A stretch of DNA of 38,883 nt from Candidatus Nomurabacteria bacterium (lineage in GTDB: Bacteria; Patescibacteriota; Minisyncoccia; Phycocordibacterales; UBA9973). The stretch covers positions 151,830 through 190,712 of the forward strand of contig JAHFNT010000002.1 in assembly GCA_023267195.1 (NCBI GenBank), in the 5' to 3' direction. Positions 14,059 to 23,332 of the stretch are shown here, one piece after another. Each line of letters begins with the position of its first letter. Position 1 is the first letter of the stretch. The notes beneath the pieces were generated by a model that saw only the letters and a program-made list of their open reading frames with translations, was not told the origin of the DNA and searched no databases. The position numbers and the translations under genes were made by a program.

Positions 14059-14115
14059 GTATATAGAGTGTATAGAAAGTTTTTGCTCGAAGTAATTTAT
14101 TTCAGTATTTCTTAT

Positions 14116-15882
14116 ATGGAAAAATTTTATAGTTGGATACGCCAGTCGAAAATTGCCGGCAAATTGTCCAAAAAAGATGAAATCAACTTGGCTTTGAATT
14201 CTTTTTCAAAAAAAGAATGGGCTGTTTTTGTTATATTTACAACAATACTCTTGATAAGCACACTTTTGATGTTGGAAAGCATAAACAAATCACTCTTGGT
14301 GAGCATACCGCTCCGCGGGGGATCCACTTCCATAGGGGTTGTTGGCACTCCACGTTTTGTGAATCCAGTACTGGCTAATTCCCCCGCAGATTTAGACATG
14401 ATAGCGCTTGTTTATTCAGGCCTAATGAGGAAAAATCCTGATGGGGTGCTTTTTCCAGACCTAGCAGAAAAATATGAGATGTCAAAAGATGCTTTAGTTT
14501 ATACTTTCACTTTAAAAGATAAAATATTTTTCCACGACGGAAAACCAGTCACCGCCGATGATGTTATTTTTACTATCAACAAAGCGAAGGATTCAGTGAT
14601 CAAAAGTCCTCATGGTGTCCACTGGGAAGGTGTGAACGCTATCAAATTGGACGAAAAAACAATTCAATTCACCCTCAAACAACCTTATCCCTCGTTTCTG
14701 GAAAATGCGACTTTGGGAATTATTCCAGAATCCATTTGGGGCGACTCTCCCATAGAGCTAAACAACGCGAATATTTCCCCTGTAGGTTCAGGACCGTATA
14801 TGGTTGAAAATATCACAAAAGAACCTTCGGGAGTTATAAATTCCTATGAATTGGTAGCGTTTAAAAAATTCATATTGGGGGAACCGTACATAAAAAGTCT
14901 CAGTGTGCATTTTTATTCTAACGAAGAGGATCTAATCAGTGCCCTTGAAAATAAAGAAGTTGACCAAGTAAGCTCTATTACACCACTCAATGCAGATATC
15001 TTAAAAGAAAGAAACTATATGGTAGAATCCTCAATACTTCCACGAGTGTTCGGACTTTTCTTTAATCAAAACCAAAATCAGCTTTTTACAAACAAATCCA
15101 TAACTAAAGCGATAGACCAGGCTATAGATAAAAACAAAATAGTGCGCGAGGTGTTATTTGGATATGGCGCAGCTATTGATGACCCAATACCCCCCAACAT
15201 GATTGAATATCAAAAATTATCTAGCAAGGCAAGCACGTCTAGAGACGGGGTACTGAAGAGCGTGGAAACACTTCTAGCTAAAGATGGTTGGTCAAAAGGT
15301 GAAGACGGATTCTTGCAAAAAACTATAGTAGATAAAAATAAAAAGAAAACCACCACCAAGCTTGAGTTTTCTATCTCAACCGGCAATGCCGCAGAATTAG
15401 TAAAAACTGCTGAAATAATAAAGCAGGATTTAGAAAAAATAGGAATGAAAGTAGACGTTAAAACATTCGAGGTTGGCAACTTAAATCAAAGCGTAATACG
15501 CCCGCGCAAGTATGATGCCCTCCTTTTCGGCCAAATCATCAACTATGAATCAGATCTTTTCGCTTTTTGGCATTCCTCTCAAAGGAAAGATCCGGGGCTT
15601 AATGTCGCCATCTATACTAATGCGAAAGTGGATAAAATTTTGGAAGATGCATTTACCACTATCAATAAGCAGGAAAGAATAAGAAAGTACGCCCAATTTG
15701 AAGAAGAAATAAGGAAGGACATGCCAGCTGTTTTCCTATATAGCCCTAATTTCATATATGTAGTTCCGAAAAATCTAAAAGGTTTCTATATTAATCACAT
15801 TATTTTACCATCGGATCGTTTCTCAAATATATATTCATGGTATACCGAAACACAAAATGTTTGGAAAATATTTTCTAAGTAA
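14116..15882 (+). CDS. ABC transporter substrate-binding protein, family 5 (peptide-binding type), membrane anchored
   Basis: GTPRFVNPVLANSPADLDMIALVYSGLMRKNPDGVLFPDLAEKYEMSKDALVYTFTLKDKIFFHDGKPVTADDV. Confidence 0.92.
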   Translation: MEKFYSWIRQSKIAGKLSKKDEINLALNSFSKKEWAVFVIFTTILLISTLLMLESINKSLLVSIPLRGGSTSIGVVGTPRFVNPVLANSPADLDMIALVYSGLMRKNPDGVLFPDLAEKYEMSKDALVYTFTLKDKIFFHDGKPVTADDVIFTINKAKDSVIKSPHGVHWEGVNAIKLDEKTIQFTLKQPYPSFLENATLGIIPESIWGDSPIELNNANISPVGSGPYMVENITKEPSGVINSYELVAFKKFILGEPYIKSLSVHFYSNEEDLISALENKEVDQVSSITPLNADILKERNYMVESSILPRVFGLFFNQNQNQLFTNKSITKAIDQAIDKNKIVREVLFGYGAAIDDPIPPNMIEYQKLSSKASTSRDGVLKSVETLLAKDGWSKGEDGFLQKTIVDKNKKKTTTKLEFSISTGNAAELVKTAEIIKQDLEKIGMKVDVKTFEVGNLNQSVIRPRKYDALLFGQIINYESDLFAFWHSSQRKDPGLNVAIYTNAKVDKILEDAFTTINKQERIRKYAQFEEEIRKDMPAVFLYSPNFIYVVPKNLKGFYINHIILPSDRFSNIYSWYTETQNVWKIFSK

Positions 15883-19068: not shown

Positions 19069-20373
19069 TTAATTATCTTTGGCGGCTTCTAGAGTTACAG
19101 GTATAGTTTTCTCTGTCCCTTTATGTAGAATTTTTAGACTGACTACTTGCCCAATTTTTTTCTCGCGAATGATAGAAGAAAGGCTGGTCTTTTCCTCCAA
19201 TTTAACCCCGTCGATTTCCAAAATGATATCATTCTCGACAATACCGGCCTTATCAGCCGGACTTCCGGGAATAACCGCCAGCTCGCTTTCCGTAGCTCCC
19301 GCTTTCACTAACACCCCATAATCTACCGTTAAATTATTTTTATCTTTCATTTCGGCATTGATAGCGACGTAACGTATTCCCAAATATGGCCGAACGATTT
19401 TACCAGTAGATTTCACTGATTCAACTACACTCTTCACGCTATTAATGGGTAAAGCAAAACCAATGCTTTGCGAACCCTGCGCAACTGCCACATTTACACC
19501 AATCACTTCCCCTCTCAAGTTTAAGAGAGGCCCGCCAGAATTCCCTGGGTTAATGGCTGCATCTGTTTGAATCACATGATCTAAAGTCTCTGATTTGCCG
19601 GAATTATCCCCCGCGGTTATAGAGCGAGAAAGTCCGGAAACTACTCCAACCGAAACTGTATTCCTGTATTCTGCCAAGGCGTTCCCGATTGCGATGACAC
19701 TTTGCCCCACCTGTAGTTTATCTGAATCGCCCAATGTCAGATAAGTGAAACCAGAACCTTCAATTTTAATCAGAGCAATATCTAAAATCGGATCACGCGC
19801 CACGACTTTGGCTGCATGTTTCTTGCCATCGTTAGTGAAAACGGTATATTCCGCGTTTTTTTGATCAACTACATGTTTATTGGTCACAATCAATCCATCA
19901 CTTGATACGAAAAATCCAGACCCACCTCCAATTTCTTTTTTTTCTGTACCATTTTGACGATACTGCGGAATACTAAAATTAAAACCGGGAAATAAATCCC
20001 CAAATGGATTTGTCTGTAAATTCGGGTCAATATAAGTTTCGTATTTGGGAACTTCCTGCGAAATAATAATTGAAACGACGGCGGGATTGGTCTTTTTCAC
20101 CGTATCAATAACAAAAGAATCTTGCGAAAAAATTGATTGTTTTTCAACAACTTTTTCAGCGACTCCTTTAGCATCTCTGCCTAAATCATCCTGCGCATCT
20201 TGCAAATATTCTTTGGCGAAATATCCAAACACGCTTGCCCGGTAATGCCAAACTAATCCCAAACCAAGGGCCAAAATCAAAACGACTGACAACAAACTAA
20301 CAAAAAAGGTCAACCAAAAATTCTTGTTGAGAAAAATTCTATTAATGAATTTTGTAATTTTTGTTTCCTGCAT
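19069..20373 (-). CDS. HtrA/DegP-type trypsin-like serine protease with PDZ domain
   Basis: GGGSGFFVSSDGLIVTNKHVV...DPILDIALIKIEG...QTDAAINPGNSGGPLLNLRGEVIGVN; C-terminal PDZ. Confidence 0.95.
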   Translation of the reverse strand: MQETKITKFINRIFLNKNFWLTFFVSLLSVVLILALGLGLVWHYRASVFGYFAKEYLQDAQDDLGRDAKGVAEKVVEKQSIFSQDSFVIDTVKKTNPAVVSIIISQEVPKYETYIDPNLQTNPFGDLFPGFNFSIPQYRQNGTEKKEIGGGSGFFVSSDGLIVTNKHVVDQKNAEYTVFTNDGKKHAAKVVARDPILDIALIKIEGSGFTYLTLGDSDKLQVGQSVIAIGNALAEYRNTVSVGVVSGLSRSITAGDNSGKSETLDHVIQTDAAINPGNSGGPLLNLRGEVIGVNVAVAQGSQSIGFALPINSVKSVVESVKSTGKIVRPYLGIRYVAINAEMKDKNNLTVDYGVLVKAGATESELAVIPGSPADKAGIVENDIILEIDGVKLEEKTSLSSIIREKKIGQVVSLKILHKGTEKTIPVTLEAAKDN

Positions 20374-20387
20374 ATTTTTTATTATAT

Positions 20388-20846
20388 TTATCTTGTTATT
20401 TTAAGCAAACTATTTTTATAAATTTTTTCTTTATATGGACGCATCCTAACTATTTTTACCGAAAGACCCTTACTTTTTAGATCTCTTTTTAAATTTTTCA
20501 CATAAGCTTTTTGGTCATAACCTAAAGCTATGATATCTGGACGTATTTTTATAATATGTGGAATATGATTCTTCACTCCAGATAAAATTACCTTATCAGC
20601 CAGCCTGCACTTTTCAACCAAAAACACTCTTTCTTGCTCGTTTTTACTTGGGTATTCACCTTTTATTCTGAAAACATTTCTATCTCTAGCTATTGAAACA
20701 ATTAAAAATGAATTTTTGATGAAGTTTTTCGCCTGCTTAAAAAAATTAATATGCCCCTTGTGCAAGCCATCAAAGGTTCCAAAGACCATTATTCTTGTCC
20801 GCCCCCCTAGTATTGTTTTTTTACTATCCACAGATTTCTTTGACAT
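20388..20846 (-). CDS. cytidylyltransferase-like nucleotidyltransferase (FAD synthetase/glycerol-3-P cytidylyltransferase type)
   Basis: RIMVFGTFDGLHKGHINFFKQAKNF (HxGH) and DIIALGYDQK. Confidence 0.88.
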   Translation of the reverse strand: MSKKSVDSKKTILGGRTRIMVFGTFDGLHKGHINFFKQAKNFIKNSFLIVSIARDRNVFRIKGEYPSKNEQERVFLVEKCRLADKVILSGVKNHIPHIIKIRPDIIALGYDQKAYVKNLKRDLKSKGLSVKIVRMRPYKEKIYKNSLLKITR

Positions 20847-20884
20847 AATCTACTAAGTAATTATATACTAGATGTGTTCGTTTA

Positions 20885-21000
20885 AAAATAAAGGAAGCCT
20901 TTGGGGAAACTGGTTTGATTCCAGTACAGTGCCGCTACGGTAAGTCCCGAACACCATCAGGTGTAGGGAACAAGTCCGAATACCAATCGCTTTATGATTA
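20885..21000 (+). ncRNA. cobalamin riboswitch aptamer
   Basis: GGGGAAACTGGTTTGATTCCAGTACAGTGCCGCTACGGTAAGTCCCGA...AAGTCCGAATACC matches the B12-box architecture (GGTgaaAaTCC...GCCGCTACTGT...AGTCaGgAtACC). Confidence 0.9.
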
Positions 21001-21044
21001 GTCCCGAGCAGGAATTACTTCTTAGTTTATTTTGAAGGACCCCA

Positions 21045-21070
21045 AATTCTGCCCGAGCAGGATTTTTTTT
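21045..21070 (+). terminator. riboswitch expression-platform terminator AATTCTGC-CCGA-GCAGGATT-TTTTTT
   Basis: 8-bp stem with one T-G pair followed directly by a U-tract, 6 nt before the ATG at 21076. Confidence 0.75.
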
Positions 21071-21075
21071 ATTTT

Positions 21076-21504
21076 ATGGCCAAAAAGAAAAGGGTAATAA
21101 TCGTATTTTTAATTTTAGCAAGCCTTTTAGGATTATTTTTTTATGCTTCGGAAAATACTTCTAAAAATCCACCTCTGCCCGACTCCCTCACCACTCAAAA
21201 AGAAAAAGTAAAAGCACCTCAATTCACCAAAACAATCTTGGAGGTAAACGGTGAAAAATACGATACGGAAATTACTGATAATTCAAGTGTTTATGATTTT
21301 ATGAATAAACTTCAGGAGGAGAAAAAAATAAATTTCACTAGCAAAACTTATACCGGAATGGGTAAACTGATTGTTGCAATAAATGGCATAAGAAGCGGCA
21401 ATGAGAGAACTTGGATTTATTATGTGAACGGCATTGAAGCGCAAGTCGGCGTTTCAAATTATAAAATAAAATCTGGAGATATTATCTCTTGGAAATATGA
21501 ATAA
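21076..21504 (+). CDS. DUF4430 (transcobalamin-like C-terminal domain) lipoprotein/membrane-anchored protein
   Basis: N-terminal TM then KTILEVNGEKYDTEITDNSSVYDFMNKLQEEK...ERTWIYYVNGIEAQVGVSNYKIKSGDIISWKY. Confidence 0.88.
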   Translation: MAKKKRVIIVFLILASLLGLFFYASENTSKNPPLPDSLTTQKEKVKAPQFTKTILEVNGEKYDTEITDNSSVYDFMNKLQEEKKINFTSKTYTGMGKLIVAINGIRSGNERTWIYYVNGIEAQVGVSNYKIKSGDIISWKYE

Positions 21505-23332
21505 AATTATTAAAATAATATTGTTAGGGGTATTTTTCTTAGCTAGTGGAAGCTTGGCATTGGCGGCTGACGTAAATTTAACAATCCGTGATAGAGCAAA
21601 TATTGTATTTTCTGGTACTGTTTCATTGCCAACTAGCATAACGAGCTTAAACGATATTGATACAACCCCGCACGCAGTAGATCCGAGTAGTGTATTAGCC
21701 ACTGTGGGGAGCGCCGATGAGACAAGCGGGAATTTTAATATTTCCAACCTAACATATTTCAGCTCCTTCAACTCCCTTTATTTAAAATGCATCACTTATT
21801 CTAGCGGAGAAAAGTGCGATGATTGGCAATATGTAGTCAATGGTTCGTACCCCCAAACAGGGATGGACCAAAATATATTAGCTGGCGGGGAAAATATTTA
21901 TGTATATTTTGGCCCGCAAAATAGAGTTCAATTAAGTTCCAATAATATAAATCAAAATGGCACACTAGTGGTGACAGCCCAAAAATATGATTATGAAAAC
22001 AATGCTTGGATTACCCGAACCGGAGTAACGATAGGTCTCACACAGTCAGATCCACTCAATCCATTTTTGCCAACAGAAATACAAACTTTGGCGGTAGATG
22101 ACAATGGACAAGCCAGCTTCTCGTCAATCCCTGCTGGTTCTTACGATGTTGGAGTGAGGGAAGATTTTTATTTTCCAAACCAAAAATTAACCGTCGTGGC
22201 ACCATCCATGAACGTATCGGGAGCTGGTAGTGGAAATTCTTCTTCAGGTTCAAATTCTCAAGAACAAGCAAATAAAAGCGAACCGAGTCCGATAGCTGAG
22301 ACAAAAAAGATATTTGATCTTGAAAAAGCCTTTGATTTTATAGCTGCGCAACAAAAAGAAGACGGGTCTTTCGGTGAAGATTTATACACTGATTGGGTCG
22401 CGTTGGCTCTGGCTTCTGGAAACTCTCAAGAACAAGTTATAAAATTAGTTAAATATTTTGGAAAATCTAAGTTAGAAAATCCGCAGTTAACTGATTACGA
22501 AAGACGCGCGATGGCCCTCATGTCGCTCGGACTCAACCCATACAACACCAATGGTGAAAATTATATAGAAAAAATAACTGCTGGTTTTGATGGAGAGCAA
22601 TTCGGAGATGCGCATGAATACAATGATGATGTGTTTGCTTTGATCGTTCTTTTAAATGCCGGCTATTCTGATGAGGAAGAAATAATCAAGAAAAGTACTT
22701 CTTTTATACTGGGAGCACAAAGCGAAAATGGTTCTTGGAGCGAAAGCGTAGATATGACCGGCGCTGTAATGGAATCGTTAGCAAAATTTAATCAAAATGA
22801 GCAAGTCAAAAACGCTCTCTTGAAAGCAAAAGATTTTCTAAAACAAAAACAGAACAACGATGGTGGGTGGGGTAATGCTTCATCGACTGCCTGGGCAATA
22901 GAAGGCATACTTGCAATGAACGAAAAGCCGGAGGACTGGAAAAAGGGAGAGGATATGTCATTTGATTATTTGGCTACGCTGCAAGATATTGATGGTGGAA
23001 TAAAAAATTTACAGGCAGACAAGGAAGATGGTAATTTGCAAAACAAAATTTGGGAAACTGCCTATGTTGCTTCCGCTTTATCAGGAAAAACTTGGGGTCA
23101 AATAATGCAAAAATTTGAAAAACCAGCGGAGGGTTTAAACCTGCCTACTAAGGAAGTTAGTCCAGTAAAACAAATCAGTAAAAAAAGTGCTAAAAAAATA
23201 TCTACCTTGGCTCAAACCGCCACAGCCATAAATGCAATTACCCCCTCCTCTAATTTAACCCCAAAAAACCTAGAAATTCTACCCAGAAAAAGCTGGTTTG
23301 CAAGATTGCTAGAAAGCATCTTTGGATTCTAG
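21497..23332 (+). CDS. secreted transcobalamin-like protein: DUF4430 domain plus prenyltransferase-like alpha/alpha repeats
   Basis: Signal peptide; WQYVVNGSYPQTGMDQNILAGGENIYVYFG; AFDFIAAQQKEDGSFGEDLYTDWVALAL...FILGAQSENGSWSESVDMTGAVMESL...FLKQKQNNDGGWGNASSTAWAIEGIL repeats; overlaps the preceding gene by 8 nt. Confidence 0.87.
   Translation: MNKIIKIILLGVFFLASGSLALAADVNLTIRDRANIVFSGTVSLPTSITSLNDIDTTPHAVDPSSVLATVGSADETSGNFNISNLTYFSSFNSLYLKCITYSSGEKCDDWQYVVNGSYPQTGMDQNILAGGENIYVYFGPQNRVQLSSNNINQNGTLVVTAQKYDYENNAWITRTGVTIGLTQSDPLNPFLPTEIQTLAVDDNGQASFSSIPAGSYDVGVREDFYFPNQKLTVVAPSMNVSGAGSGNSSSGSNSQEQANKSEPSPIAETKKIFDLEKAFDFIAAQQKEDGSFGEDLYTDWVALALASGNSQEQVIKLVKYFGKSKLENPQLTDYERRAMALMSLGLNPYNTNGENYIEKITAGFDGEQFGDAHEYNDDVFALIVLLNAGYSDEEEIIKKSTSFILGAQSENGSWSESVDMTGAVMESLAKFNQNEQVKNALLKAKDFLKQKQNNDGGWGNASSTAWAIEGILAMNEKPEDWKKGEDMSFDYLATLQDIDGGIKNLQADKEDGNLQNKIWETAYVASALSGKTWGQIMQKFEKPAEGLNLPTKEVSPVKQISKKSAKKISTLAQTATAINAITPSSNLTPKNLEILPRKSWFARLLESIFGF

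Follow-up and report, generated by a model that had tools for sequence, protein, structure and literature searches.

A cobalamin riboswitch heads predicted transcobalamin-like surface proteins in a Patescibacterial genome and is linked to a class II ribonucleotide reductase

Overview of the locus and the proposed system

The window analysed here, a stretch of 38,883 nucleotides (C5:151830-190712), is part of a 648-kb genome (G000, 91% complete) that groups with genomes deposited as Candidatus Nomurabacteria in the same genus. It carries a cobalamin riboswitch followed by two overlapping genes, the upstream P1 encoding a DUF4430 protein and the downstream P2 encoding a protein with a DUF4430-like domain and an alpha/alpha toroid. 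Our analysis makes it very probable that they belong to a riboswitch-controlled cobalamin capture-and-import system supplying adenosylcobalamin (AdoCbl) to an RTPR-type class II ribonucleotide reductase. The evidence, drawn from sequence or predicted fold, consists of the riboswitch, the protein domains, the gene neighbourhoods, the co-occurrence of genes among relatives, and the absence of BtuC-type and EcfT-type transport proteins.

What we infer from these parts is how they would act together. When intracellular cobalamin is low, the GAGCAGGA strand would pair with the 5′ arm of the terminator and allow read-through transcription; when cobalamin is bound to the aptamer, the GAGCAGGA strand would be kept back, so that the terminator folds and the operon is turned off. 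Both proteins would remain on the outside of the membrane: P1 would be a transcobalamin-type beta domain held there by its anchor, while P2 would contribute a second beta domain together with a toroid able to fold over the corrinoid in the manner of transcobalamin. From them cobalamin would pass to S185, a six-helix, S-component-like permease that is encoded elsewhere, next to the reductase genes, and apparently acts without an EcfT module. Cobalamin would then be turned into AdoCbl for the RTPR-type reductase by a PduO-type adenosyltransferase (ATR).

The cobalamin riboswitch and its terminator

An earlier note on this DNA had placed a B12-element aptamer before the gene pair, and the covariance-model search bore this out. 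RF00174 matches positions 20858..21005 (+) with 34.4 bits (E 3e-5), which exceeds the gathering score of 31.5, and this match is the single one in the whole genome. Directly 5′ of the aptamer is a sigma-70-type promoter (TTGACA-18 nt-TATACT, 20840..20869, +) that agrees with the consensus at 11 of 12 positions and whose TATA element is also seen at many homologous loci. Since the Rfam match has its 5′ end inside the promoter, the probable start of transcription is near 20876, and the transcribed, functional aptamer would extend from about 20877 to 21014.

In a survey of 100 relatives the RNA was present in 38, with the RF00174 cut-off exceeded in 24, and a covariance model built from our own alignment gave 125.6 bits for the window copy, which belongs to its training set. 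Across 27 aligned copies, 13 base pairs of the helices were changed on both sides and 92% of the cells were paired; none of 500 shuffles reached the observed level, and slid alignments dropped to 24-55% paired. The closing helix is mostly mispaired in the Rfam alignment, the 5′ end of which enters the promoter, so it was placed by hand and its counts are biased towards it; the window copy keeps 8 of the 10 pairs of this helix. Judged by these sequence comparisons, the riboswitch match is real and no chance hit.

The 3′ part of the leader holds a conserved element, UCCCGAGCAGGA (21002..21013, +), which forms a small hairpin, is near-invariant across 27 homologues and is the likely antiterminator strand. 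It is followed by an intrinsic terminator (21044..21065, +) with a 9-bp stem and a U tract (hairpin −8.8 kcal/mol), and UCCCGAGCAGGA can pair in the window with the 5′ arm of this terminator (AAAUUCUGC, 21044-21051), the duplex having −7.6 kcal/mol. Other loci have a terminator hairpin and U tract at the same place, with a stem sequence that differs in some of them, and UCCCGAGCAGGA is still complementary to most of the other genomes' terminators examined. Because this complementarity is kept despite the varying stem sequences, the leader is suggested to be a transcription-terminating OFF switch, a direction that we infer.

As a variant of the RNA itself, the riboswitch of G019 (L094 3190-3425; L224 2856-3091) has about 100 nt inserted in the variable hairpin, which splits its covariance-model match in two.

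The surface proteins P1 and P2

The open reading frames of P1 (21076..21504, +, 142 amino acids) and P2 (21497..23332, +, 611 amino acids) overlap by exactly 8 nt, as had been described. P1 consists of an N-terminal membrane anchor, found in all 29 homologues, and a DUF4430 domain (residues 70-142; 21283..21501, +) that matches PF14478 with 51.7 bits against a gathering score of 23.8 (E 1.2e-13). Residues F87, Y92, G96, Y116, N118, S127 and W139 are invariant in the 29 homologues. The P1 profile found no match when searched directly by sequence against the PDB, and its kinship came out by fold comparison only. The AlphaFold model (predicted local distance difference test, pLDDT, 85.7) has its best PDB fold matches among transcobalamin beta domains (2bb6, E 8.7e-8), and the 19 best matches are all transcobalamin, haptocorrin or intrinsic factor, or 3u7z of R. 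gnavus. Compared with the isolated human transcobalamin beta domain 5no0, the model gave a template-modelling (TM) score of 0.84 by target length and a root-mean-square deviation of 1.5 Å over 101 columns. SUMO, the first unrelated fold (E 3.7e-3), was two orders of magnitude weaker in E-value. The predicted fold of P1 is thus closest to a transcobalamin-type beta domain, in line with the short, membrane-anchored DUF4430 protein that the earlier note had read from the sequence.

P2 starts with a signal peptide, followed by a DUF4430-like domain (residues 25-140; 21569..21916, +), a beta-sandwich (residues 141-235; 21917..22201, +), the toroid (residues 275-540; 22319..23116, +) and a membrane-seeking amphipathic helix at the C-terminus (WFARLLESIFGF type; 23294..23323, +). 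The first domain is divergent, and its assignment to DUF4430 relies on a beta-grasp-like pattern in the AlphaFold model and on weak profile matches, including one of its profile to the intrinsic factor beta domain (E 0.1). The beta-sandwich, seen in the AlphaFold model and weakly matching SpaA, is gapped in about a third of the homologues. The C-terminal helix, read from the model and the homologues as a probable surface tether, is swapped for a transmembrane helix in 7 of 28 homologues. The toroid, in which NDD and DW motifs are invariant, is the best-conserved part of the protein and is recognised by its repeats, which match SQHop_cyclase_C (PF13243, E 1.4e-10), as well as by the model and by PDB matches. 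Of the secreted protein with DUF4430 and alpha-alpha repeats that had been proposed, the toroid therefore stood, whereas the DUF4430 part of P2 fell below the Pfam cut-off. The order of domains, DUF4430 before toroid, agrees with the AlphaFold model; it is indeed the opposite of the animal order, as had been pointed out, but it is not new, both orders having been described in 2007 (PMC1796856).

The PDB fold matches of the toroid were squalene-hopene cyclase, transcobalamin and TED domains, about equally, and Cobalamin_bind (PF01122) did not recognise it (E 0.086, 12.2 bits against a cut-off of 25). The toroid fold was consequently dropped as proof by itself of transcobalamin kinship, since squalene-hopene cyclases and the TED domains of alpha-2-macroglobulin match equally well; of the two folds of intrinsic factor and transcobalamin claimed for this locus, the beta domain of P1 was upheld, and the toroid proved similar to transcobalamin but equally to other folds. 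One could suppose instead that the toroid catalyses a reaction of the squalene-hopene cyclase or prenyl-transfer type, with only an indirect link to cobalamin, squalene-hopene cyclases being its best sequence matches. However, the toroid is secreted and has just about 270 residues, transcobalamin too has an alpha/alpha toroid and shows up in the fold search, and the homologues of G023, G043 and G046 that lack the toroid retain the riboswitch and the beta domain, so that we give the enzyme explanation hardly any credence.

The latter reduced loci (L068 in G023, L075 in G043 and L084 in G046) consist of the riboswitch and one P2-type beta-domain protein of 249-288 amino acids. Because riboswitch and beta domain are kept there without the toroid, the beta domain is suggested to be the essential part of the capture system. 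In transcobalamin, the beta domain is the first to bind cobalamin and the alpha domain closes afterwards (PMC11107200); this binding order would suit P1 as a beta domain held at the membrane and P2 as a partner that combines a beta domain with a toroid.

Association with an AdoCbl-dependent ribonucleotide reductase

Searched for B12-dependent enzymes and for the permease of BtuCDF-type importers, the genome yielded an RTPR-type reductase and no FecCD/BtuC homologue. The reductase matches TIGR02505 with an E-value of 2.9e-84, the best of all NCBIfam reductase models by more than 200 bits, and its best PDB match is the L. leichmannii enzyme 1l1l (E 2.1e-42). Alignment to 1l1l showed that the active site is kept (N406, C408 and E410 within NPCGE, and C419), and the C-terminal CxxxxC cysteine pair is present as CVSGVC. 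The PduO-type ATR scores 130.4 bits with TIGR00636, the cut-off being 108.45 (E 5.4e-38). RTPR is the sole B12 user found in G000, because the single match to the B12-binding family PF02310 sits within the IMP dehydrogenase gene and was rejected as a B12 enzyme.

Co-occurrence was analysed in 60 genomes of the genus, in which, as drafts, gene searches can overlook genes that are present. RTPR was found in 38 of 40 genomes bearing P2 versus 10 of 20 without it, and all 10 genomes without both P2 and RTPR carry class I NrdA-like matches. The association gave Fisher P values of 1e-4 (60 genomes) and 3e-5 (the 48 genomes at least 90% complete), which take no account of shared ancestry. Matches of about 390 bits to TIGR02504 (NrdJ_Z) in relatives were rejected as class II reductases; they belong to class I NrdA, with NrdB adjacent in the inspected genome G007. 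In most of the genus, the sole ribonucleotide reductase found would accordingly be one that needs AdoCbl, with a regulated surface system serving its supply, and many sister species without the capture system use a class I reductase instead.

The riboswitch-P1-P2 order recurs throughout the genus and in other Patescibacteria, and our own covariance model placed the riboswitch 5′ of the pair in 65 of 79 loci (contigs). The order S185-RTPR-ATR-riboswitch-P1-P2 on one strand was seen at nine examined loci, RTPR-ATR-riboswitch-P1-P2 at six further ones, and RTPR-S185-riboswitch-P1-P2 at seven, a few of these loci being one genome counted twice. The B12-capturing surface system postulated in the earlier note is thus supported by RTPR and PduO in the genome, by their frequent position directly 5′ of the riboswitch in relatives and by the co-occurrence with class II rather than class I reductase, all of which argue for it at the level of genes.

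The same neighbourhoods bear on the idea that the riboswitch is real while P1 and P2 capture something other than cobalamin, or attach to polysaccharide or partner cells as a B12-regulated adhesin or host-contact device. Members of the SLBB superfamily bind, or are predicted to bind, different ligands (PMC1796856), P2 has an additional beta-sandwich domain, and three genomes place an operon with a TraG/Clp-like ATPase behind the same riboswitch. Against this stand the fold of P1, nearest to the transcobalamin clade, and the recurrent clustering with the AdoCbl-dependent reductase, the adenosyltransferase and a CbrT-like S-component, as a role in B12 transport would predict; we therefore hold such a device to be quite improbable and favour cobalamin capture.

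The operon in question was found in genomes without P2, namely G057 (L083), G033 (L071) and G090 (L089), where the riboswitch heads four conserved genes. Their products are a long and acidic protein, probably disordered, a 553-amino-acid ClpB-like AAA+ protein, another, small protein and a TrwB/TraG-like ATPase of 426 amino acids. The last is a distinct paralogue found at high identity (73-100%) in just these 3 of 100 genomes, the other listed matches being paralogues of 38-45%. Another riboswitch partner, in G034 (L065, 173-760) and G038 (L064), was considered as a different gene type and rejected; it encodes a further DUF4430-like protein with the twin-arginine-like N-terminus SRRRF, the G038 copy lying at a contig end.

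The import route

S185 was searched for in G000-G035 and was present in 23 of 25 genomes bearing P2 versus 2 of 11 others. Its profile has as best PDB match 6fnp_A, weakly (E 0.0034), and 20 of 26 S185 homologues match the ECF S-component family ECF-ribofla_trS (ECF, energy-coupling factor). 6fnp_A is CbrT of the B12 transporter ECF-CbrT (PMC5997447), and it is also the only PDB match of the DUF6580 (PF20221) profile (E 1.1e-4); comparison of the S185 and DUF6580 profiles gave 89.5% probability (E 2e-6). In Magasanikbacteria, Liptonbacteria and others, DUF6580 lies 3′ of P2, putting the membrane protein itself under the switch, and the two occurrences of DUF6580 in the 100 relatives both adjoin P2. 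DUF6580 is therefore proposed as a candidate B12 S-component. The family, to which no function is assigned, adjoins P2 homologues at L093, L099, L230, L253, L277, L283 and L285-L288.

The EcfT/CbiQ family (PF02361) was found in none of the 60 genomes, 49 of which are at least 90% complete and little contaminated, and positive controls were detected. BtuC/FecCD (PF01032) was absent from G000 and matched in 3 of 60 relatives, each time near the cut-off. Another explanation would keep the B12 capture device and assign transport to a classical ABC (ATP-binding cassette) or ECF importer, missed through the 91% completeness or because its families are divergent. G000 is indeed incomplete, and S185 is tied to CbrT only weakly; the EcfT and FecCD counts given above and the distribution of S185, which follows the capture genes, speak on the other side, and we consider a missed importer unlikely.

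That S185 works without an ECF module is proposed at lower confidence than the remaining parts of the capture-and-import system. In its full form, the proposal is a B12 importer without a dedicated ATPase, in which the surface beta domains and the toroid would load a solitary S-component (S185, or DUF6580 elsewhere) and cobalamin would be trapped by adenosylation and reductase binding; we rate this at somewhat below an even chance. If true, this would add to BtuCDF and ECF-CbrT a capture-assisted form of B12 uptake in prokaryotes and give DUF6580 and the unnamed S185 family a function.

Comparison with known systems

Burroughs et al. (2007; PMC1796856) described bacterial SLBB (DUF4430-type, PF14478) proteins in which a fused toroid may come before or after the SLBB domain and which often have a second SLBB paralogue in the operon. 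The operons usually contain CbiO/CbiQ genes as well, and the authors predicted that the proteins scavenge B12 and that the module was transferred to animals. P1 and P2 resemble these secreted or anchored proteins, predicted scavengers in organisms without key B12 synthesis genes, in the toroid fusion and the paralogous second gene. The described proteins are mainly Gram-positive with CbiO/CbiQ (ECF-type) operons, whereas here the setting is Patescibacterial, EcfT is absent, a riboswitch stands in front, and the neighbours are a class II reductase, PduO and an S-component-like protein. The architecture and its "opposite order" were thus already known; new are the Patescibacterial setting, the riboswitch, the coupling to the reductase and the apparently solitary S-component. 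A literature search, with most subscription journals outside its reach, gave no account of such a system in Patescibacteria, with a cobalamin riboswitch in front, or coupled to a class II reductase, and nothing relevant on cobalamin riboswitches in Patescibacteria, on Nomurabacteria and B12, or on DUF6580.

Animal transcobalamin, haptocorrin and intrinsic factor share the same two folds, at about 13-20% identity in the fold alignments, but the present system has the reversed domain order, an additional membrane-anchored beta domain and an added beta-sandwich. In the nrdJ-cbrS-cbrT-pduO cluster of Lactobacillus delbrueckii (PMC5997447), a class II reductase, an S-component and PduO likewise come together in a B12 auxotroph without BtuCDF; that cluster has no transcobalamin-like capture proteins, which the arrangement here adds. 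BtuM of Thiobacillus denitrificans (PMC6072759) offers a likeness for S185, being a solitary S-component with which a host lacking an ECF module can take up B12, although the S185 profile search returned CbrT and not BtuM, and BtuM homologues are described from Gram-negative bacteria. The BtuG-type surface lipoproteins of gut Bacteroides, by their description, also capture B12 at the cell surface, but as part of an outer-membrane transport system (PMC6143338).

The locus provides strong genetic evidence for prokaryotic DUF4430 proteins as B12 carriers, and suggests that DUF6580 and the S185 family serve in B12 transport. By the general view, Patescibacteria live on other cells and depend on them, and the system described here would be one concrete, testable dependency. 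The scavenging might even be aimed specifically at a host cell, as contact-dependent theft, rather than at free environmental cobalamin, an alternative that draws on this lifestyle and on the surface location of both P1 and P2. The locus shows no sign of contact dependence, however, and Gram-positive members of the same protein clade are thought to scavenge environmental B12 (PMC1796856); the chances of such targeted theft seem small.

Several observations weigh against the capture-and-import system as a whole or in its parts. Cobalamin binding by P1 and P2 is a prediction. The DUF4430 domain of P2 scores 19.4 bits against the Pfam PF14478 cut-off of 23.8 (E 0.0015), and the toroid is at least as similar to squalene-hopene cyclases and TED domains as to transcobalamin. 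The RTPR of G000 remains under the curated NCBIfam cut-off of TIGR02505 (283.6 versus 340.05 bits) and would be a divergent member or a sister group of RTPR. In G000 its genes do not adjoin the riboswitch, the S185-RTPR-ATR operon (given in transcription order) lying on a different contig (L151, G000:C7:100000-112000). Seven genomes of the same genus have RTPR and yet neither P2 nor the riboswitch, which means that either other B12 routes exist or genes were missed. As to a solitary S185, its similarity to CbrT is weak, and CbrT of L. delbrueckii requires an ECF module and gave no growth when solitary (PMC5997447), whereas here EcfT was not found.

Other features of the window and related contigs

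Upstream of the locus, the window encodes an HtrA-like trypsin/PDZ protease (19069-20373, −), a neighbour that is kept in many relatives. Among the related contigs, JAMPXW010000002.1 (L218), deposited as "Burkholderiales bacterium", corresponds to the Patescibacterial contig G027:C2, and its organism name appears to be wrong. Elsewhere in the window are a full-length 16S rRNA gene (1048-2595, −) and a gene for a family-5 solute-binding protein (14068-15882, +; SBP_bac_5, E 1.5e-67).

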